NCBI GenBank assembly: GCA_012033595.1
Contig: JAAUQL010000062.1
Location: 1-36,017, forward strand
Length of the DNA: 36,017 nucleotides
Direction: 5' to 3'
From: Cyclobacteriaceae bacterium
GTDB lineage: Bacteria; Bacteroidota; Bacteroidia; Cytophagales; Cyclobacteriaceae
Below the pieces are notes generated by a model that worked only from the letters and a program-made list of their open reading frames with translations, had not been told where the DNA came from and searched no databases. This document shows positions 1,012 through 17,783 of this stretch, one piece after another. Each line of letters opens with the position of its first letter. Positions within the stretch are counted from its first letter, which is position 1. The translations under genes were made by a program, and so were the position numbers.

Positions 1012-1977
1012 CTAATTAGTATCTTCCAAAATCCTCCGCACCATTTCTTCGGTAGTGTAGCCAGCCTCCTGAATCGCCGCCACAAAGCCACTATCAGGCG
1101 AAATACATGGATTTCCGTTCACTTCAAGGATATAAAGATTGTCAGAGGCATCCATGCGAAAATCTATGCGTACATAGCCTTTCAGCTTAAATGCATCCCA
1201 GGTTTCCAGGCATACGCTTACGATTTTATCTTTCAATGGCTCATCATTTGCCAGTGTGGCGAAGGATCTGTTGGTTTGTTTGTATTCTTCGCTTTGCTCG
1301 TCCCATTTGGCCTTATAGCCTACTATTTTTGGTTTGTCGTCAAAGTATTTAGAAAAGACCATTTCGGCCGGTGGCAGTACTTCCATGCCTGCGCCGCTGC
1401 TCAGCAGGCTGACATTGAATTCGCGTCCATCGATATATTCCTCTACAAAGTAATGCGTACTGCTCAGTTGTTTGATGTTGCTCAGCTTCGATGCATCAGC
1501 AGGGCTAAATATAAAATCTGCGCTGATGCCCACAGATGCCTCTTCCCAGATCGGCTTGGCAATATAAGTTTTGTGGGCAGAGAGCTTGTGCAATTCATCG
1601 ATGGCAAAAAAATCAGCAGTGGGTAAGCCGTGCAGGCGCATCCATTTTTTTGCCAGCACTTTGCTTGTGGTCAAAAACAGGGCATCGAGCGGTACACCGG
1701 TATAGGGTAGCTTATAGGCATTGAGCAGGGCCGGTGCTACGTAGATCAGCTCCCCTTTGTCCCAGAGGTCTTCCACCAGGTTAAAGACCACATCGGGCTT
1801 TTCGATAAGTACCTTTTCCATGTCGCCTTTCAGGTCTTTGCCGAGGGTCATGGACGTGCATTTGTGGCCGAGTGCCGCACAAGCCTTCATTACCAGGTCG
1901 CGTTGGTGGATGACGTCGAGTTGATCGGGTTGGCCAGATTGCACTGCGTTGTGCAAGATCACAATATTTTGCTTCAT
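1012..1977 (-). CDS. D-Ala-D-Ala ligase-like ATP-grasp protein (second of pair)
   Basis: This 321-residue ATP-grasp enzyme resembles D-alanine-D-alanine ligase. Such enzymes use ATP to activate a carboxylate as an acyl phosphate and join it to an amine. The visible signatures are AKPIWEEASVGIS (ATP-grasp lysine and flexible loop, about residues 140-152), FVEEYIDGREF (hinge and adenine region), YVRIDFRMD and the metal-binding end ILEVNGNPCISPDSGF. The last motif differs from the form expected in true Ddl enzymes and is closer to dipeptide or RimK-like ligases, so cell-wall D-Ala-D-Ala synthesis is not assured. Its ATG overlaps the stop of the preceding ligase by 4 bp, indicating translational coupling. 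The two adjacent ligases are clearly diverged from each other, suggesting two successive or different couplings. The substrate is unknown. Confidence 0.85.
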   Translation of the reverse strand: MKQNIVILHNAVQSGQPDQLDVIHQRDLVMKACAALGHKCTSMTLGKDLKGDMEKVLIEKPDVVFNLVEDLWDKGELIYVAPALLNAYKLPYTGVPLDALFLTTSKVLAKKWMRLHGLPTADFFAIDELHKLSAHKTYIAKPIWEEASVGISADFIFSPADASKLSNIKQLSSTHYFVEEYIDGREFNVSLLSSGAGMEVLPPAEMVFSKYFDDKPKIVGYKAKWDEQSEEYKQTNRSFATLANDEPLKDKIVSVCLETWDAFKLKGYVRIDFRMDASDNLYILEVNGNPCISPDSGFVAAIQEAGYTTEEMVRRILEDTN

Positions 1978-2951
1978 TGGTCAAAATGTCTTTTGATGGC
2001 CGATTTCAATATTTCCTCAATCAGGTGCTGAAAATCCATACCATTGAGCTGGCACAATATCGGTAAGTCAGAGGTAGTGGGATTGAGACCTGCAAGCGGG
2101 TTTACCTCAATAAAGCTCATTTTGCCAAACCGATCTATTTTCACATCCACGCGCCCGCCATCATAGCAATTGAGCGCCCGCCACGACTTCAGCGCCACTT
2201 TTTTGCATTCTTCCAATAGTTCGCCACCCACGGCTTCATATTCTATCCGGTCTTCATAATTTTCCTTATTGTCGTAAGTATATATTTGTTTGGTGCCTTG
2301 CAGGTAGATGATCTCCATGGCACCCGGCACATAGGCAGCATCGCCGCTGCCGATTACGCCTACGGTAAATTCCCTCCCGGGAAGAAATTCCTCTACCAAT
2401 ACCGGCTGGTTGAATTTATTGAGGATATAGTGGCACGTGTTTTCCAGTTCTTCTTTGCTTGCGATCAGTGATCTGGAGCTGATCCCTTTGCCGGTGCCTT
2501 CGGAGATGGGCTTGGCAAAAAGGGGGTATTCCAGTACAATTTCTTCGATATCGGATTGCTGCGAAACTACATGAAATGCCGGCGTATTCACACCTTTTGA
2601 CTTAACCAGTTGCTTGGCAAAGGCCTTGTTGAGCGATATGCCCAGGGTAACCGGTCCGGAAAATACATAAGGGATTTTGTAGGTGTCGAGCAGGGCAGGG
2701 ACCAGCGACTCGCGTCCTTCGCCATAGAGACCTTCGGCAATATTGAAGACCATGTCCCATTTTTTGCCATCGAGCAGGGCTTGCATCAGGTCGATGGCAT
2801 TGCCTATTCGCTCTACGGTGTGTCCTGCCTTTTCTATGGCCTGCTCTATACCTTCTATGGTACTTTCTTTATCAAATTCGGCGGTTTGTTCCATCGAATA
2901 CCCTCTCTTCAGATAGTCCGAACGGAGGTCGTATGTGAATCCTATTTTCAA
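1974..2951 (-). CDS. D-Ala-D-Ala ligase-like ATP-grasp protein (first of pair)
   Basis: This 325-residue ATP-grasp protein is closer to canonical Ddl than its downstream partner. The N-terminal domain has VFNIAEGLYGEGRES followed by VPALLD and IPYVFSGP (about residues 68-99), the substrate-loop pattern of Ddl proteins. The ATP-grasp part shows AKPISEGTGKGIS, LVEEFLPGREFTVGV, GGRVDVKID and the Mg-binding FIEVNPLAGLNP. It overlaps the upstream GNAT-deacetylase gene by 4 bp and the downstream ligase by 4 bp, so three genes form one coupled operon. A typical genome has one housekeeping ddl near cell-wall genes. This pair sits beside deacetylase and acetyltransferase domains instead, which argues for a specialised amino-acid or peptide ligase. 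The substrate is not determinable here. Confidence 0.85.
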   Translation of the reverse strand: MKIGFTYDLRSDYLKRGYSMEQTAEFDKESTIEGIEQAIEKAGHTVERIGNAIDLMQALLDGKKWDMVFNIAEGLYGEGRESLVPALLDTYKIPYVFSGPVTLGISLNKAFAKQLVKSKGVNTPAFHVVSQQSDIEEIVLEYPLFAKPISEGTGKGISSRSLIASKEELENTCHYILNKFNQPVLVEEFLPGREFTVGVIGSGDAAYVPGAMEIIYLQGTKQIYTYDNKENYEDRIEYEAVGGELLEECKKVALKSWRALNCYDGGRVDVKIDRFGKMSFIEVNPLAGLNPTTSDLPILCQLNGMDFQHLIEEILKSAIKRHFDQ

Positions 2952-4722
2952 TCGTTTTTTGTTTTTGATGGTGATACATGATTTTTAAACATCCTCGTGG
3001 AGATGTACCCTTCGAAGAAGTTGCGGGCATTGATGCCCAGTGTACGGTTTTTATAACCCCCTTCCTGAACAAAAAGTATAGGGTAGGGGAGTTTTCCAAA
3101 TGCCTCCCCGTTGTTTTTAAAATCAGCCGGTGATAGTGTCCAGGTGCCTGTGGGGTCTCCTTTGGCGGGGTCGAGACCCAGACTGACGATCAGATATTGT
3201 GGTTTGAAAGCGCTGATTTCTTTCAATGCTTTTTTCAAATAGCTCAAATATTCCGGGCCGTCAAGGGCTTCTTTCAGCGGGTAGTTCAGGTTATATCCTT
3301 CGCCTTGTCCCTCGCCTTTTTCATCGGCAAACCCGTAAAATATGGATAGGCAAAAGACGGGTTGCCATGAATGGAAACGGTGAACACATCATTTCGCTGA
3401 TAAAATATCTGCTGTTGGCCGTTGCCGTGATGATAGTCGATATCCAGAAGGGCTACTTTGCCCAGCCTGGACAAAAAATTGGCGGCGATGGCGGCATTGT
3501 TGAAATAGCAAAAACCGCCATAAACATCTCTTTCGGCATGATGCCCCGGGGGCCGCACCAGGGCATAGGCGGTATGGTAGCCTTCCAGCAGTAGTTCGGC
3601 TGCTGTCAGCGTGCAATTGACCCCTGCGCGAGCCGCCAAAAAGGCATTTTTGTTCAGCGGGGTGAAGGTGTCGATGCAGTAATATCCGGCCAAAACCGAA
3701 TAATCTTTTGGTGGGCGTGTAGCATTCCTTACCGGAAAAACATAGGGATAAATCGATTTACCCTCCGGCAACTTGTCACATACCTTTTTGAAATAATTAA
3801 AGTACTTGATATTATGAATGTCGGTGATATGCTTATCGGGATAGCCACGAGCTGGCCGCGACTTGAACTCATGGAGTTTTTCTATCTCCCTCCATATGCT
3901 TTTGATCCGTACCGGCGACTCGATATAGCCTACTTCTTTCACATGGTGAATGTCATGTTTGTCATTCACTACCAACGCTATTTCGTCCTTCACCGCTTCG
4001 CGTTTTTCCAAGGGCCGGTCTTTTACCAGATACCTGAAGGCACGAAGCTGCACCGGGTCATCTTTGATAGATGCTACCACCATTTTGATATAGGCTTCGG
4101 GACAATATTTAGGGTATTTTCGCTCAAGAATAGCCCTGACAATTTTTTTTAACTGGCTGGCCGACAACTGTATATCATTTCCTAGGTCATCATACACCAG
4201 GTACGGCGGACAGTCGTCGGCAGGCTCAACTACGGTTTCGTATCTGGTATTGATAACAGGCCGCGCACCATAGCGTTCGTAAAATGCCAGTCGCGATTTG
4301 TTTTGCTTCATTTCACTTTTGTCGCGACAGAGCTTTTCGTCGTCGGGTAGGCACTCCATAAAAATGCCAAGCGAGTTGAGCATTTGTGCTTCTTCCCTGA
4401 TGCGCTCATAAATGGCACCGCCCACACCCGAAGATACCTTTCCCGGCTTGACGGCAATGTAGTCGAGAAAGCAAAAATTCCTGTCGGGCAGGTAAAAAAG
4501 GATGGCAAAACCTTTCACATTGCTGCGGCCATCTTCGGCTACGAACAGACTGGTCGAAAAACCATATTTTATCGGGTCCTTCATCTGCTCCAGTATCTCG
4601 TTTATTTTCTCCTCGAGCACCGAGGGGAAATGCGCCCTGAGTATATTGAATACCTGTAAAATTGCCGCTGAATTGGTAGGCAAGTAGGCATCTGTTATTT
4701 TCCTGATTCTGAATACATTCAT
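2948..4722 (-). pseudogene. GNAT-histone deacetylase/acetylpolyamine amidohydrolase-like fusion, frameshifted
   Basis: The gene encodes a fusion that would be about 591 residues long if one missing base is restored. Residues 1-165 or so form a GNAT domain (FLDYIAVKPGKVSSGVGGAIYERI as beta-4/motif A). After a linker of about 100 residues comes a deacetylase domain with catalytic RPPGHHAE (H394, H395) and zinc-site LLDIDYHHGNG (D429, H431). The uninterrupted frame ends at a TGA (3286-3288) after 478 residues. The missing part continues in the -1 frame as FADEKGEGQGEGYNLNYPL, then SLGLDPAKGD (the third zinc ligand Asp) and EGGY (the catalytic Tyr loop). The unshifted product would therefore lack key catalytic residues. 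The frame change falls at GGGTTTG (3328-3334). It heads an operon with two ATP-grasp ligases. The deacetylase family acts on acetyl-amine groups, including acetylpolyamines. The lesion may be a sequence error, a real mutation or recoding. Confidence 0.85.
3328..3334 (-). promoter_or_regulatory. In-frame GGGTTTG heptamer at the frame change (possible -1 slippery site)
   Basis: On the coding strand the codons read ACG GGT TTG CCG, so the heptamer G GGT TTG fits the X XXY YYZ pattern in the correct register. A -1 slip here would join ...FTG-L to ADEKGEG, restoring the family-like GFADE region with Leu in place of Phe. It is equally explained by one lost base in the G or T run. No stimulatory pseudoknot could be demonstrated by eye. 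Confidence 0.3.
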
Positions 4723-5055: not shown

Positions 5056-5877
5056 TTATCTATAATACTCATAAATATTAATTGCACCTGGAGCCGATCC
5101 GGGAAACCCTGCATCAAAATGATGGCTTTCGATGAGGAAATGTTCTTCATCGTAAAAATACCTGTTCGTTACGCGTCTGCCCAGAGTTTCACCCCAGAGG
5201 TAAGCCTCTTCAACTTTCTGCCCCAGTTTGTTATAGATTTCCTCGTAATAGGCCTTGCCTTCAATCCCATTTTTGTTTGTCCCAATAAATAAGATGGTAT
5301 CTTGTTTGTGCTCATACTTGACAGAGCCTAAAAAAGCTTCTTCATAATCAAAATATGATTCCTTTACTTTTCTTCCTTCCAAATCGTATTCGTTCCTGGT
5401 GACACTCACTAGCTGATTGTGCTCATATTTACGTCTCTCCACCAATAGATCATTGGGATAGAAATAGTCGGTGTAGGATTCCAATTTGCCGTTGTTATAA
5501 CTATAACTCTTAACAAGTTTATCGTTGTCGTATGTGTATTGTAAATATGTTCGGATTTGGGAGGGTGGTGTGGCTGAGCTATAATTATACTCCTTAATTA
5601 CCTGGCCTTTCTGGTTTCTTTCGGTGATTTGGGTCTGTTCCAAAATAGTACCTGAGTAAACTTCTACTTTGGTCAAATATCCATTTGCATTATAGTAGTG
5701 TTCGCTACGGCCATCAAATCCTTGCGCGGTTTCCCGTATCGTTTTTAATTTATCTTTTAGCGCGGGATTATTTGGGTCGTTGATGAATTGAGTGTTTTCA
5801 AGATCAATTTTGTCGCAGGAAACAAGCGTTAAAACTAGTAACAATAATTGAGCATAAGTTTTCATGATTTTGTTCAT
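5056..5877 (-). CDS. Lipoprotein with repeated YD/RHS-like strand motifs
   Basis: This predicted 273-residue lipoprotein has an N-terminal hydrophobic stretch (YAQLLLLVLTLVSC) ending in a lipobox with Cys at about residue 21. The body is made of short tyrosine-rich hairpin-like units such as YYNANGYLTKVEVYSG, YTYDNDKLVKSYSYNNGKL and NEYDLEGRKVKESYFDY. These recall the YD repeats of RHS-type beta shells and the repetitive lipoproteins common in Bacteroidota. There is no catalytic motif. It is flanked on the same strand by the KamA gene (147 bp) and the deacetylase operon (333 bp), so co-transcription is possible but not shown. It is probably anchored at the outer or inner membrane facing the periplasm or surface. 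Its function is unknown. Confidence 0.75.
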   Translation of the reverse strand: MNKIMKTYAQLLLLVLTLVSCDKIDLENTQFINDPNNPALKDKLKTIRETAQGFDGRSEHYYNANGYLTKVEVYSGTILEQTQITERNQKGQVIKEYNYSSATPPSQIRTYLQYTYDNDKLVKSYSYNNGKLESYTDYFYPNDLLVERRKYEHNQLVSVTRNEYDLEGRKVKESYFDYEEAFLGSVKYEHKQDTILFIGTNKNGIEGKAYYEEIYNKLGQKVEEAYLWGETLGRRVTNRYFYDEEHFLIESHHFDAGFPGSAPGAINIYEYYR

Positions 5878-6023: not shown

Positions 6024-7301
6024 TCACGAATAAGATTTTATCTGTACCGGATCATAGTATTTGAATGACTTGCCTTCGAAATTTTTCAAGATCACATTGT
6101 CCCCCTCGCGTCCCTGGTAATATTCGGGAATCAGCGGGATTTTGCCTCCACCGCCCGGAGCGTCGATTACAAAGTGTGGTATGGCATATCCGCTGGTAAA
6201 CCCACGCAAACCCTGGATAATCTCCAATCCTTTGGTCACAGGTGTACGGAAGTGTGACGAACCCGGAATGGGGTCGCATTGGTAAATATAGTATGGCTTT
6301 ACCCGTATCTTCAGTAGTTTGTGCATCAGGTTTTTCATGGTTTCCACGTTGTCATTCACGCCTTTTAGCAGCACGGTCTGGCTACCCATTACTATTCCTG
6401 CATCGGCAATTCGTGTACAGGCCTCGGTCGCTTCCGGGGTAATTTCGTCGGGGTGGGTCACATGGATGCTCATGTATAGCGGATGGTATTTTTTCAACAT
6501 TTTCACCATGGTGTTGGTGATGCGCTGTGGCAGCACCATCGGTACTTTGGAGCCAATGCGGATGATCTCTACATGCGGAATGGCGCGCAGCGAAGAGAGC
6601 AAAAATTCCAGGTGCTTGTCGGGAAGGGTCAGCGGGTCGCCACCGGACACCACCACATCGCGCACCCCGGGGTGGTTGCGTATATAATCAATGGATTTTT
6701 CCCAGGCTTTTACCCCATAGTGTTTTTTGTCTTTCTCGACCATGTGCGTGCGCGTACAGTAGCGGCAATACACCGAGCAAAACCCGGTAGAGAGCATCAG
6801 CACCCTGTCGGGATAGCGGTGTACCAGGTTGTCGACCGGACACATCGACTCTTCGTGCAGCGGGTCGGTCTCTTCGCCGGGAGATACGATGAGTTCCAGT
6901 TTGTCGGGCACCACAGATTTGGCAATAGCATAGCTGATGGGCTTGCCATGGAAGAGGCTCGCATAGTATGGGGTAATGCGCAGGGGTAGTTTTTTTGACT
7001 TGGCCAAAAAGTCCAGGTCGTCAATGGTGCTCACATCCAGTATTTCCGAAAGTTTTATGAAGTTGGTATAGCTGTTTTGGATTTGCCAACGCCAACTGTT
7101 CCATTGCTTATCGGTGGCAAAAGGAAAGTACTTCGCCCGGAATTTTGCCGTTTGGGCGCTAATCACATTAAAGTCTGAATTGGGGATTTCAGTTTTGCCA
7201 AACAAGGCCTTGCCGGCGGTAGCAGTTTCCAATACTACTTCGATCGACGAAAGATCCGGACCGAGGGGAGGTTCGTAATCCTGTTGTGCAAGCTCATTCA
7301 T
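6024..7301 (-). CDS. kamA: KamA family radical SAM lysine 2,3-aminomutase
   Basis: This 425-residue radical SAM/PLP enzyme is predicted to convert L-lysine to L-beta-lysine. The [4Fe-4S] cluster motif CxxxCxxC is C175-SVY-C179-RY-C182. The SAM-binding GGDPLTL follows at 220-226, and the PLP lysine is K387 in DAPGGGGK. From the established Clostridium lysine aminomutase structure, two aspartates 37 residues apart bind the substrate side-chain amine. Here D343 (YQCD) and D380 (FVID) keep both residues and the exact spacing, favouring lysine over glutamate. No separate AblB-type acetyltransferase is adjacent, but GNAT domains are encoded just downstream. A family relative could instead have EpmB-like function, yet the length and the presence of the C-terminal region fit KamA better. 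A possible -7 box lies at 7331-7338. Confidence 0.9.
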   Translation of the reverse strand: MNELAQQDYEPPLGPDLSSIEVVLETATAGKALFGKTEIPNSDFNVISAQTAKFRAKYFPFATDKQWNSWRWQIQNSYTNFIKLSEILDVSTIDDLDFLAKSKKLPLRITPYYASLFHGKPISYAIAKSVVPDKLELIVSPGEETDPLHEESMCPVDNLVHRYPDRVLMLSTGFCSVYCRYCTRTHMVEKDKKHYGVKAWEKSIDYIRNHPGVRDVVVSGGDPLTLPDKHLEFLLSSLRAIPHVEIIRIGSKVPMVLPQRITNTMVKMLKKYHPLYMSIHVTHPDEITPEATEACTRIADAGIVMGSQTVLLKGVNDNVETMKNLMHKLLKIRVKPYYIYQCDPIPGSSHFRTPVTKGLEIIQGLRGFTSGYAIPHFVIDAPGGGGKIPLIPEYYQGREGDNVILKNFEGKSFKYYDPVQIKSYS

Positions 7302-12826: not shown

Positions 12827-14356
12827 ATGAAAGAAATTGAAAATATTGAACTGGCATTTTTGAGCCTTGACGACTATCAGGAATTGAAAACAGCCATGAT
12901 CGAGGCATATTCCAGCATGCCCAACTCCTATTGGAAAGAACAGCAAATCAACTCGCTAATCAGCCGCTTTCCCGAAGGCCAGGTGGTGATAAAAGTAAAT
13001 AAACAGATCGCAGGTTGTGCCTTGTCTATTATTGTGGACTATGCCGCTTTCGAAGATGAACATACCTACAAGCAAATTACCGGAGACTACACCTTCAATA
13101 CACATAGCCCTGCCGGCGATACGCTCTACGGCATAGATGTGTTCATTAAGCCTGAATTCAGGGGGTTGCGCCTGGGTCGCAGGTTGTATGATTACCGAAA
13201 GGAACTTTGTGAGCGACTCAACCTGCACGGAATTGTTTTTGGAGGGCGCATTCCCAACTATCATAAATTTGCCGGGGAGATGTCGCCCAAAGAATATATC
13301 GAAAAGGTAAAGCGCAAGGAAATCCACGATCCGGTTTTCAATTTTCAGATTTCCAATGATTTTCATCCTTCGAAAATTCTCAAAAACTATCTACAGGGCG
13401 ACAATGCCTCTAACGACTATGCCGTTTTGCTTAAGTGGGACAATCTCTACTACGAAAAGAAAGAAAAACAGGCAAGCACGACGAAAAAAGTAGTGAGGTT
13501 GGGGCTGATTCAGTGGCAAATGAGACCATACAAACATCTGGATGAATTGCTGCACCAGGCCGAATATTTTATTGACGCCGTTTCGGGCTATCGGTCTGAC
13601 TTTGCGTTGTTTCCGGAGTTTTTCAATGCGCCGCTGATGGCGGACAATAATCATCTTGACGAGCCCCAGGCCATCCGCGAGCTTGCAAAGCATACCGAAA
13701 CCATCAAACAGCGTTTTTCTGAACTGGCCATTTCTTATAATATCAACATTATTTCGGGCAGCATGCCTGAGATGAAAAACGACAGGTTGTATAATGCCGG
13801 CTATCTGTGCAAGAGAGATGGCAGCGTGGAACGTTTTGAAAAGCTACACGTAACCCCCGACGAAGTAAAAGTATGGGGAATGGAGGGGGGTAAGCAACTG
13901 AGGGTATTCGATACCGACTGTGGAAAAATTGGCATTTTGATATGCTATGATGTGGAATTTCCGGAGCTGAGCCGGATTCTGGCAGAAAAAGGGATGGACA
14001 TATTATTTGTTCCGTTCCTTACGGATACCCAAAACGGATACTCCCGGGTGAGGAACTGTGCTCAGGCACGCGCCATCGAAAATGAATGCTATGTGGCCAT
14101 AGCGGGCAGTGTCGGCAATCTGCCAAAAGTTCATAACATGGATATACAATACGCTCAATCCATGGTATTTACGCCATGCGATTTTGCCTTCCCGGCCAAC
14201 GGCATCAAAGCAGAAGCAACGCCAAATACCGAAATGATATTGATAGCTGATGTTGATATCGATTTGCTACGGGAGCTTAACCAATTTGGCAGTGTGAGAA
14301 ACCTGCGTGACCGGCGCAAAGATATTTATGACCTGAAGATGACACAGGCAGAGTGA
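12827..14356 (+). CDS. GNAT-carbon-nitrogen hydrolase (nitrilase superfamily) fusion
   Basis: This 509-residue two-domain enzyme begins with a GNAT acetyltransferase domain at about residues 1-205, with YGIDVFIKPEFRGLRLGRRLYDYR as beta-4 and motif A. After a short linker rich in lysine comes a nitrilase-superfamily amidase from about 222. The catalytic triad is visible: E264 in LFPEFF, K339 in RFEKLHVTPDE and C373 in LICYDVEFPE. Nitrilase-fold amidases hydrolyse C-N bonds of amides or N-acyl amino acids, so the fusion joins acyl transfer with amide cleavage, as the GNAT-deacetylase fusion at 2.9-4.7 kb also does. It is the first gene of an apparent five-gene operon, with a good -7 box 51 bases upstream. 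The substrate is unknown. Confidence 0.9.
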   Translation: MKEIENIELAFLSLDDYQELKTAMIEAYSSMPNSYWKEQQINSLISRFPEGQVVIKVNKQIAGCALSIIVDYAAFEDEHTYKQITGDYTFNTHSPAGDTLYGIDVFIKPEFRGLRLGRRLYDYRKELCERLNLHGIVFGGRIPNYHKFAGEMSPKEYIEKVKRKEIHDPVFNFQISNDFHPSKILKNYLQGDNASNDYAVLLKWDNLYYEKKEKQASTTKKVVRLGLIQWQMRPYKHLDELLHQAEYFIDAVSGYRSDFALFPEFFNAPLMADNNHLDEPQAIRELAKHTETIKQRFSELAISYNINIISGSMPEMKNDRLYNAGYLCKRDGSVERFEKLHVTPDEVKVWGMEGGKQLRVFDTDCGKIGILICYDVEFPELSRILAEKGMDILFVPFLTDTQNGYSRVRNCAQARAIENECYVAIAGSVGNLPKVHNMDIQYAQSMVFTPCDFAFPANGIKAEATPNTEMILIADVDIDLLRELNQFGSVRNLRDRRKDIYDLKMTQAE

Positions 14357-15938: not shown

Positions 15939-16847
15939 ATGAAAATTGCGATATTATCAAGAAATCAGAATTTGTACTCGACCCGTCGGTTGCTCGATGC
16001 CATAACGCTGCGTGGGCATCAGGGTCTGGTAGTTGACCATATGAAATGCGATTTGATTATGGACGAAAGGGGGCCTTCTATTTATTATAAAGGAGAAAAA
16101 CTGGAGGATATTGACGCCATTATACCCAGAATAGGCGCATCAGTCACCTTCTATGGCACAGCAGTAGTTAGGCAATTTGAGATGAAACATGTCTTTAGCA
16201 CTCAGGACTCACTGGCCATTACCCGGTCGCGCGATAAATTGCGCAGCTTGCAAATATTGTCCAGGTCGGGGGTGCTTATGCCCAAGACCGCCTTTACCAA
16301 CTATAGCAAAGATGAAAACAAACTGCTAAAGCACATTGGCGAAGCACCTGTGGTCATCAAACTACTGGAAGGAACCCAGGGATTGGGTGTGGTACTTGCC
16401 GAAACAAATAAGGCAGCCAAATCGGTGCTGGAGGCATTTGAAAGTCTCAAAACCCGAGTCATTTTGCAAGAATTTATAGAAGAAGCCAAAGGGGCTGATA
16501 TTCGTGCCTTTGTGATTGACGGAGAGGTAGTAGGCGCCATGAAGCGACAGGGAAAGGAAGGAGAATTTCGCTCCAACCTGCATAGAGGGGGCAATGCCCA
16601 CATCATTAAGCTGTCTCGCACCGAAAAATCTACCGCCCTGAAGGCTGCCAAATCCATAGGTCTGGCCATTGCCGGAGTCGATATGCTACAATCCAAACGT
16701 GGACCTATGGTGCTGGAGGTCAATTCCTCCCCGGGTCTGGAAGGTATAGAAAGTGCCACCGGGGTAGATATTGCAGGCAAAATCATAGAATATATAGAAC
16801 GGAATGCTGCAAAAAAGCGCAAGCCAAAAGATAAAGTGAAAGCGTAA
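15939..16847 (+). CDS. rimK: RimK-like ATP-grasp glutamate ligase
   Basis: This 302-residue protein has the size and order of RimK, the ATP-dependent ligase that adds glutamate to the C-terminus of ribosomal protein S6 or makes poly-glutamate. The N-terminal domain begins [18 protein letters not shown] and includes [14 protein letters not shown]. The ATP-grasp domain has [18 protein letters not shown] (about residues 134-151), [28 protein letters not shown], and the metal-binding [26 protein letters not shown] near 246-271. The ATG follows the TAA of the RimB-like gene with no gap, and its own TAA abuts the next ATG, so the three genes are surely co-transcribed. Whether its target is S6 or a small molecule made by the surrounding enzymes cannot be told. 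Confidence 0.92.
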
Positions 16848-17783
16848 ATGAACATAAATGGTGTAGAAATAAAGCCGGGAGACCAACGATCCATCGAAGT
16901 GAACATTGCCAGGCTGCCTTCACACTCGTCGATAGATATCGTGATCAATGTGGCCAGAGCACATAAAAAAGGACCGGTGCTTTTGCTCATGGGCGGCTTG
17001 CATGGCGATGAGATTAATGGCGTGGAGATCATCAGAAGGATGATAGAACAGAAAAAAAATATACCCAGGCAAGGCACGGTGATATGTATTCCTATCTTGA
17101 ATATTTTTGGCTTTATTCATTTTTCGCGATACGTGCCCGATGGCAAAGACGTAAATCGTTCTTTTCCCGGAAATAAAAATGGCTCTCTGGCAGCCCGTGT
17201 GGCCTACTACCTGATGAAACACATCCTACCCAAGATCGATTATGGCGTTGATTTTCATACCGGTGGCGACGATAGGTTTAATTATCCGCAGATCAGATGT
17301 ATGCTCAACGATCCCGTCAATCAGCAACTCGCCGGGGCTTTTCATGCCCCTTTTACCTTGCATTCGCAATACAGGCCAAAATCTTTGCGACAAGCAGCCG
17401 CTAAAATGGGCAAGCATATCGTGGTGTTCGAAGGGGGAGAATCATCAAGGTTTGATGAAAATGCGATTTCAGAGGGAATAAACGGCACATTGCGCTTGAT
17501 GAACCATTTGGAAATGACCGATGAAAAACCAGTTCCTAAAAGGAACAACAAGATCATCCGCAACTCGTCATGGATCAGAGCCAAAGCATCGGGCATGTTT
17601 TTATCTGAAGTAAAATGCGGCGATGCCATTAAAAAAAATGCAGTGGTCGGCGCCATAAAAGATCCCTTTGGCGAGCTCAATCAGGTGGTGAAGGCCACCA
17701 CCACCGGCTATGTGATCGGTCTTAACAACAATCCTATCGTCCACCAGGGAGATGCGCTCATGCATGTGGGGGTATTGAAATAG
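16848..17783 (+). CDS. Succinylglutamate desuccinylase/aspartoacylase family metallohydrolase
   Basis: This 311-residue zinc deacylase belongs to the AstE/AspA branch of the M14-like fold. The zinc ligands are H52 and E55 in GGLHGDEINGVE and H137 in DFHTGG. DVNRSFPG (101-108) is the usual substrate-carboxylate region, and VVFEGGE near 192-198 holds the expected catalytic glutamate. The C-terminal beta domain (CGDAIKKNAVVGAIKD ... TTTGYVIGL) is complete. AstE-like enzymes release an acyl group from N-acyl amino acids; the exact acyl group and amine are not predictable. It is translated immediately after RimK. Such RimK/RimB/AstE-like trios occur in other bacteria as a matter of general knowledge, and here two GNAT-containing genes precede them. 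Confidence 0.9.
   Translation: MNINGVEIKPGDQRSIEVNIARLPSHSSIDIVINVARAHKKGPVLLLMGGLHGDEINGVEIIRRMIEQKKNIPRQGTVICIPILNIFGFIHFSRYVPDGKDVNRSFPGNKNGSLAARVAYYLMKHILPKIDYGVDFHTGGDDRFNYPQIRCMLNDPVNQQLAGAFHAPFTLHSQYRPKSLRQAAAKMGKHIVVFEGGESSRFDENAISEGINGTLRLMNHLEMTDEKPVPKRNNKIIRNSSWIRAKASGMFLSEVKCGDAIKKNAVVGAIKDPFGELNQVVKATTTGYVIGLNNNPIVHQGDALMHVGVLK

Follow-up and report, generated by a model that had tools for sequence, protein, structure and literature searches.

Which product is made by a group of genes that sets an acetyltransferase, a deacetylase-like domain and two relatives of D-alanine-D-alanine ligase (Ddl) side by side? The question is raised by a stretch of 36,017 nucleotides from a Cyclobacteriaceae bacterium (assembly GCA_012033595.1, contig JAAUQL010000062.1), here called the window. 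It encodes a GNAT domain joined to an HDAC-like zinc amidohydrolase domain (GNAT-HDAC), followed by two ATP-grasp proteins (ATPg1 and ATPg2; ligases 1 and 2 in relatives). An earlier interpretation made from the letters alone, here the sequence-only reading, treated these three genes as the whole unit. According to our analysis of relatives the unit is larger, since a KamA-family lysine 2,3-aminomutase and a second acetyltransferase (GNAT2) are members as well. The core consists of KamA, the two ligases and GNAT2, and GNAT-HDAC is a frequent fifth member. Judged by gene content and conserved residues, this cassette probably encodes a pathway to a peptide containing beta-lysine. That an acetylated di- or tripeptide of this kind is accumulated as a compatible solute is a possible reading, to which we would give slightly less than an even chance.

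To describe the cassette we scanned the genomes of many species, each represented once, for relatives of GNAT-HDAC. At least 574 were found, and the best 80 loci were kept (L and G numbers are our handles for loci and genomes). By their record titles these come from Bacteroidota, Deltaproteobacteria, Chloroflexi, Nitrospirae, Spirochaetes, KSB1, Acidobacteria, Aminicenantes, Bacillota and further groups. Since 76 of the 80 are titled metagenome-assembled genomes (exceptions: L054, L065, L115 and L121), single taxon labels may be wrong. At least one true cassette partner adjoined GNAT-HDAC in 50 loci; the KamA matches of L064 and L105, at 30% and 29% identity, were taken as non-cassette, as was the ligase match of L082, and all three were dropped from the counts. 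Several gene orders occurred. With g1 and g2 for ligases 1 and 2, these were KamA-g1-g2-GNAT2-HDAC (16 loci), KamA-HDAC-g1-g2-GNAT2 as in the window (10 loci), KamA-g1-g2-HDAC-GNAT2 (9 loci) and HDAC-g1-g2-GNAT2-KamA (2 loci), and the remaining partner-bearing loci were partial, several of them at contig ends. Gene junctions measured 100 bp or less in 154 of 176 cases, with a median of 2.5 bp (starts trimmed to the alignment). The genes were thus reordered while the content was kept, which argues for a functional linkage and not for mere co-ancestry of a block. The distance matrices of the five proteins, compared over 35 loci (ligase 1 of L107 and of L112 excluded), were correlated with r from 0.54 to 0.94, and for each of the ten pairs none of 500 permutations reached a value as high.

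About a third of the loci seemed to carry GNAT-HDAC without partners. A script gave 29 such loci and L064 was taken as the thirtieth, as its KamA match was only 30% identical. Genome searches removed most of this apparent absence by finding relatives elsewhere in 28 of the 30 genomes. The ligase-1 profile scored more than 400 bits in 22 of them and 280-356 bits in five: G476 and G480 (both truncated at contig ends), G474 (two ligases fused, with no KamA in the stretch read), G471 and G478. A broken ligase 1 next to KamA and ligase 2 was present in G468, and the same profile search returned no ligase-1 relative in G462 and G477, where it found a Ddl or nothing. Among 24 remote core loci that were read, KamA and both ligases stood together in 22, and GNAT2 accompanied them in 19 of these 22.

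Copies of the whole GNAT-HDAC are uncommon. Among 395 genomes drawn evenly from the phylum, near full-length matches were confined to the window's genome and G440; the other matches were HDAC domains. Within the window's family (98 genomes) GNAT-HDAC was found in four genomes and ligase 1 above 400 bits in two, both inside those four (Fisher p 0.0013). In a second family, f35 (79 genomes), three genomes had the full GNAT-HDAC and four had ligase 1 above 400 bits, with an overlap of three (Fisher p 5e-5); the fourth, G400, carried the HDAC part only. The neighbourhood is kept far beyond Bacteroidota, so that the sequence-only reading is not refuted by genes that are rarely neighbours in relatives, although the ligase occurs in only 2 of the 98 sampled genomes of the window's own family. 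The family-wide link of GNAT-HDAC to the ligases is looser than at the kept loci. At L195 (G034) and L196 (G031) a GNAT-HDAC of 48-52% identity was seen, with cassette genes absent nearby. In G400, positions 7906-11063 of L197 encode a 716-aa protein in which two Ddl-like ligases are fused and, immediately 3' of it, the GNAT-less HDAC protein, and similarly long ligase proteins were present in G474, in G577 and elsewhere in G400.

The genes of the window are listed in Table 1.

Table 1. Cassette genes of the window and the open reading frame lying between them
Feature	Position	Strand	Supporting match
KamA-family radical SAM lysine 2,3-aminomutase, 425 aa, with beta-lysine as predicted product	6024..7301	-	PDB 2a5h and TIGR00238
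273-aa open reading frame in the gap between KamA and GNAT-HDAC, lipoprotein-like start by eye	5056..5877	-	without family match
N-terminal two thirds of the HDAC-like zinc amidohydrolase domain, preceded by the GNAT domain and a linker, 478 aa	3286..4722	-	Pfam Hist_deacetyl
HDAC tail in a different frame, 99 aa, bearing the third zinc-ligand position and that of the catalytic Tyr	2948..3247	-	Pfam Hist_deacetyl
ATP-grasp ligase 1 (ATPg1), 325 aa, starting with TTG, related to Ddl but not itself a Ddl	1974..2951	-	Pfam Dala_Dala_lig_C
ATP-grasp ligase 2 (ATPg2), 321 aa, more diverged Ddl-like	1012..1977	-	Pfam Dala_Dala_lig_C
Second acetyltransferase (GNAT2), 154 aa	283..747	-	Pfam Acetyltransf_7

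Transcription proceeds from KamA over the 273-aa open reading frame, the split GNAT-HDAC, ATPg1 and ATPg2 to GNAT2. The 4-bp overlaps noted earlier agree with the coordinates (2948-2951 and 1974-1977). The proposed fusion of acetyltransferase and deacetylase was right as to its domains, but these lie here in two frames and not in one. The GNAT half gave only a weak match (Acetyltransf_7, 25.1 bits, slightly short of the Pfam cut-off of 27), and the Hist_deacetyl profile is divided between the 478-aa frame (profile positions 2-195, 156.2 bits) and the 99-aa frame (216-295, 46.4 bits). The first frame ends early, with a break near 3330-3360. Frame 3286-4722 corresponds to residues 1-465 of an intact homologue of the same genus (83% identity) and the frame ending at 2948 to its residues 455-589 (77% identity). 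Because both frames match this intact protein, the break is best read as a recent real frameshift or an assembly error. For the 273-aa open reading frame no Pfam or NCBIfam match was obtained, nor any at 1e-4 across the 80 related loci. It is missing from the intact same-genus copy L202 and apparently stands outside the conserved cassette.

KamA aligned with the L-lysine 2,3-aminomutase structure PDB 2a5h over 365 residues (E 1.4e-124) and exceeded the KamA-family cut-off (TIGR00238, 335.6 versus 199.2 bits). Its residues R184, D343, D380 and K387 are shared by 97% or more of 45 sequences, a count that takes in the probably non-cassette KamA of L064. They correspond to Arg134, Asp293 and Asp330 of 2a5h, which bind the substrate, and to Lys337, which binds pyridoxal phosphate. 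Lysine, and not glutamate, is thereby favoured as the substrate. Because KamA retains the lysine-binding residues, beta-lysine is the likely entry point and the likely starting building block of the cassette. KamA is also related to EpmB (244.9 bits), so that beta-lysine might be destined for a protein, as with EpmAB and EF-P, or the cassette might modify polyamines. This score is far under the EpmB cut-off of 369.3 and under KamA's own score on the AblA model, and we know of no use of Ddl-like ligases in either kind of modification. Acetylpolyamine amidohydrolases do belong to the HDAC-like enzymes and are named in a 2024 survey of bacterial deacetylases (PMC11532494), yet among all alternatives we regard protein or polyamine modification as the most improbable.

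A simpler use of beta-lysine is known. AblA and AblB make the osmolyte N-epsilon-acetyl-beta-lysine in methanogens, with salt-dependent expression (PMC1224877), and the ablA-ablB pair has been proposed for the salt tolerance of Pelobacter carbinolicus (PMC3543383). As the cassette KamA resembles lysine 2,3-aminomutase, it could form the same compound with one of the GNATs, the ligases and GNAT-HDAC serving something else in the operon. However, the KamAs scanned stayed under the AblA cut-off of 525.4 bits (TIGR03820; window 443.7, L069 494.6, L074 488.4), whereas the AblA of G464 reached 776.9. The AblB model TIGR03827 gave no match at 0.001 for GNAT2 or GNAT-HDAC of the window, and none for GNAT-HDAC of L045 and L069 or GNAT2 of L069 and L074. 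Both ligases, moreover, occur in nearly all well-covered core copies, and the window's genome has an AblB locus of its own. We therefore consider this explanation improbable. Of 39 genomes with GNAT-HDAC, two had an AblB above the cut-off. One of the two is the genome of the window, with a broken AblB gene after those of a KamA-like protein and a sodium symporter. This separate beta-lysine locus (L209:2396-6106) comprises the KamA-like gene, a sodium:solute symporter and AblB with a frame-broken start.

That two Ddl-like ATP-grasp proteins follow GNAT-HDAC was borne out by Pfam (Dala_Dala_lig_C, 99.2 bits for ATPg1 and 67.3 bits for ATPg2). Among the matches listed (for ATPg1, 25 of 38 models) neither ligase reached a Ddl cut-off. 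ATPg1 scored 130.1 and ATPg2 90.9 bits on TIGR01205 (cut-off 245.65), and 155.2 and 99.1 bits on NF002378 (cut-off 243). A separate Ddl of the organism lies on another contig, scores above the Ddl cut-offs (345.8 bits on TIGR01205) and adjoins a protein that appears PASTA-like by eye. It is thus excluded that the organism's own Ddl is a cassette ligase, and neither ligase is its sole Ddl, the case by which the sequence-only reading would have been refuted. In an alignment with two true Ddls, ligase 1 kept Ser and Gly of the acceptor motif and had the Tyr after the conserved Lys replaced; ligase 2 had lost the acceptor Gly and Ser and carried Trp after the Lys. We assume for these positions the roles assigned to the acceptor-motif Gly and Ser and to the omega-loop Lys-Tyr of Ddl. 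Given the altered motifs, both ligases should form amide bonds on substrates other than two D-alanines. Their kinship to Ddl could also suggest a modification of the cell wall or its precursors, for example a D-Ala-like terminus or a cross-bridge of beta-lysine. Against this stand the separate Ddl and the loss of acceptor Gly and Ser in ligase 2; moreover, no mur or fts gene was present among ten further window genes scanned and no such family among the neighbour families listed. A cell-wall role is accordingly very improbable, and the proposal of a small peptide or pseudo-peptide pathway apart from the cell wall was upheld by the conserved neighbourhood, the ligase scores and the separate Ddl.

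The acetyltransferases and the HDAC-like domain complete the set. GNAT2 exceeded the cut-off of 27 bits (Acetyltransf_7, 41.5 bits) and shared 28-73% identity with the GNAT2 proteins of 29 further cassettes. In the GNAT half of the fusion a Gly-x-Gly is kept at residues 99-101, which fits the acetyl-CoA loop of GNATs. At 1e-5 the intact GNAT-HDAC of L045 gave no domain but HDAC (Pfam, 243.7 bits over a cut-off of 27.9). Positions H394, H395, D429, H431, D518 and Y557, which we take to be the zinc and catalytic positions of HDACs, were invariant in 34 intact homologues; the window's equivalents of D518 and Y557 are located in the second frame. The text available from the 2024 survey contains no GNAT fusion (PMC11532494).

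From these families a pathway can be proposed. The sequence-only reading had the small peptide but was incomplete, as it missed the aminomutase with its beta-lysine building block and the second acetyltransferase. KamA would first convert L-lysine to beta-lysine, as predicted from its residues. The two ATP-grasp ligases, by acyl-phosphate chemistry like that of Ddl, would then attach one or two further amino acids to beta-lysine, and GNAT2 would acetylate a leftover amine, lowering the net charge. Solutes based on beta-lysine and on small peptides with an acetyl cap are already known, the former as N-epsilon-acetyl-beta-lysine and the latter as N-acetylglutaminylglutamine amide (NAGGN), an acetylated neutral dipeptide (PMC1224877). 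In the least certain step GNAT-HDAC may both add and remove an acetyl group, either capping and recycling the solute as osmolarity shifts or protecting and deprotecting an intermediate. The latter chemistry would equally suit a beta-lysine peptide that serves some other end (as a signal, in metal binding or storage, or as an antibiotic-like metabolite), in which the acetyl is a temporary protecting group removed by the HDAC domain. Two ligases together with acetylating and deacetylating activities are well suited to such a protect-couple-deprotect scheme, and the sensor-kinase domains common nearby could mean regulated production of any kind. The spread over many phyla with conserved sequence and the lack of a transporter or resistance gene common to many neighbour clusters of the 80 loci are unlike a specialised antibiotic cluster. 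Although most loci lack a channel gene within two genes, as shown below, we hold a peptide for another purpose to be rather unlikely.

For the compatible-solute reading the neighbouring genes were compared. The near set comprised 240 proteins encoded no more than two genes away from the cassette or from GNAT-HDAC, open reading frames shorter than 110 aa being left out; the far set comprised 240 drawn from 264 far proteins of the same loci, scanned as 144 and 96. MscS channels made up 7 of the 240 near proteins, from 5 of the 80 loci (L064, L082, L090, L100, L106), and four of them lay on the same strand at a distance of at most 276 bp. About 0.26 were expected from a rate of about 1 MscS per Mb (127-128 matches in 34 genomes), giving Poisson values of 1e-8 for the seven genes and 8e-6 for the five loci with relatedness ignored. 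A model seeded from the seven near channels found none among the 240 far proteins (p = 0.0075 for 0) and one extra match across the 80 loci, four genes away. The Pfam families listed allowed at most one far MscS in each of the 144 and the 96, two in all (p = 0.034 for 1). MscS and a Na+/H+ antiporter were located between the ligases and KamA in G478, MscS was found about 1.9 kb from GNAT2 in G466, and the classical ablA-ablB pair of G464 adjoins an MscS gene and a sucrose-phosphate synthase. Channels beside several copies would allow the solute to be released on osmotic down-shock.

Several observations weigh against a solute made by a tightly coupled cassette. There is no MscS within two genes in 75 of the 80 loci, and the contrast of near with far proteins is less clear than that of near proteins with the genome rate. 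Some record titles suggest non-saline habitats (names only). A search for Na+ or cyclic di-AMP riboswitches in 66 sources (the window, 42 of the 80 loci, three longer genome stretches and 20 small pieces with little DNA upstream of KamA) returned only tRNAs and one thiamine pyrophosphate riboswitch; a lysine-2,3-aminomutase gene of Dehalobacter is reported to have a Na+ riboswitch in tandem with a cyclic di-AMP riboswitch (PMC9337991). The window's GNAT-HDAC is frame-broken, and its genome also holds the KamA-like, Na+ symporter and AblB locus. Two of the four GNAT-HDAC genomes of the window's family, G031 and G034, gave no ATPg1 match at 1e-60. Conversely, 47 of the 79 f35 genomes have a divergent ATPg1 relative (324-348 bits) without a full GNAT-HDAC. 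In 26 of these divergent loci that were read, ligase 2 always adjoined ligase 1 and GNAT2 was present in 23; one longer stretch (L201) had KamA and no GNAT-HDAC. Since this divergent core occurs without GNAT-HDAC, the latter is not essential to the core. Together, relatives with GNAT-HDAC lacking ligases and a core lacking GNAT-HDAC weaken a strict co-dependence.

Other neighbours vary. HATPase_c was present in 10 of the 240 near proteins, whereas the far families represented at least twice did not include it; several of the loci concerned are close relatives. The cassette often has two-component and PAS/GAF sensor domains next to it, which may hint at its mode of regulation. MarC lies inside four cassettes (L085, L089, L100, L107). 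TrkA was dropped as a cassette neighbour because it is 2.6-5.7 kb away. In L075, L093 and L103 a membrane-like protein of 286-310 aa without Pfam match is encoded directly 3' of GNAT-HDAC. Elsewhere in the window, positions 15939-17783 (+) encode a RimK-like ATP-grasp ligase and immediately thereafter an AstE/AspA-type deacylase, possibly a further pair for small peptides or acyl-amino acids. The single protein encoded at positions 12827-14356 (+) is a carbon-nitrogen hydrolase whose N-terminal part weakly matches GNAT.

Should the compatible-solute reading prove true, it would add a new small molecule and its pathway to the few known salt-handling routes of sediment and deep-water microbes, and would give a role to two uncharacterised families of Ddl-like ligases and to the GNAT-HDAC fusion. 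By domain alone these enzymes would pass for a D-Ala-D-Ala ligase and a histone deacetylase. The wider idea, an undescribed class of compatible solutes across many mostly anaerobic lineages in which one protein adds and removes the acetyl group and so tunes level or charge, is more speculative and we would rate it as rather unlikely. No description of this gene set was found in open-licence PMC full text, a search that leaves subscription literature mostly outside. The cassette is small enough for expression in E. coli with mass spectrometry as the read-out of the product.

Compared with known systems, the cassette ligases belong to the same ATP-grasp family as Ddl and keep its Arg-x-Asp and Glu-x-Asn motifs. 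They differ by falling below every Ddl cut-off among the matches listed and by the Lys-Tyr pair, which is mostly Lys-Glu or other in ligase 1 and Lys-Trp in ligase 2, the latter being also without the acceptor Ser and Gly. GNAT-HDAC shares the invariant zinc-site and catalytic Tyr positions with HDAC-like deacetylases and acetylpolyamine amidohydrolases, but has an N-terminal GNAT-like domain and is tied to a beta-lysine cassette. AblA-AblB likewise unites a lysine 2,3-aminomutase and a GNAT acetyltransferase in one operon, and the classical copy in G464 has an MscS neighbour as some cassettes do. The cassette differs in that its scanned KamAs do not reach the AblA cut-off, none of its scanned GNATs is an AblB, and it has two ligases and GNAT-HDAC in addition. 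The NAGGN pathway employs a GNAT/ATP-grasp fusion synthetase and an asparagine-synthase-like amidotransferase. An acetyl-capped small peptide made by an ATP-grasp ligase is, as an idea, common to both, although the NAGGN model was not among the NCBIfam matches listed for the cassette proteins. The cassette keeps its GNAT and ATP-grasp genes separate, has no asparagine-synthase-like amidotransferase among them, and is predicted to build on beta-lysine instead of glutamine.

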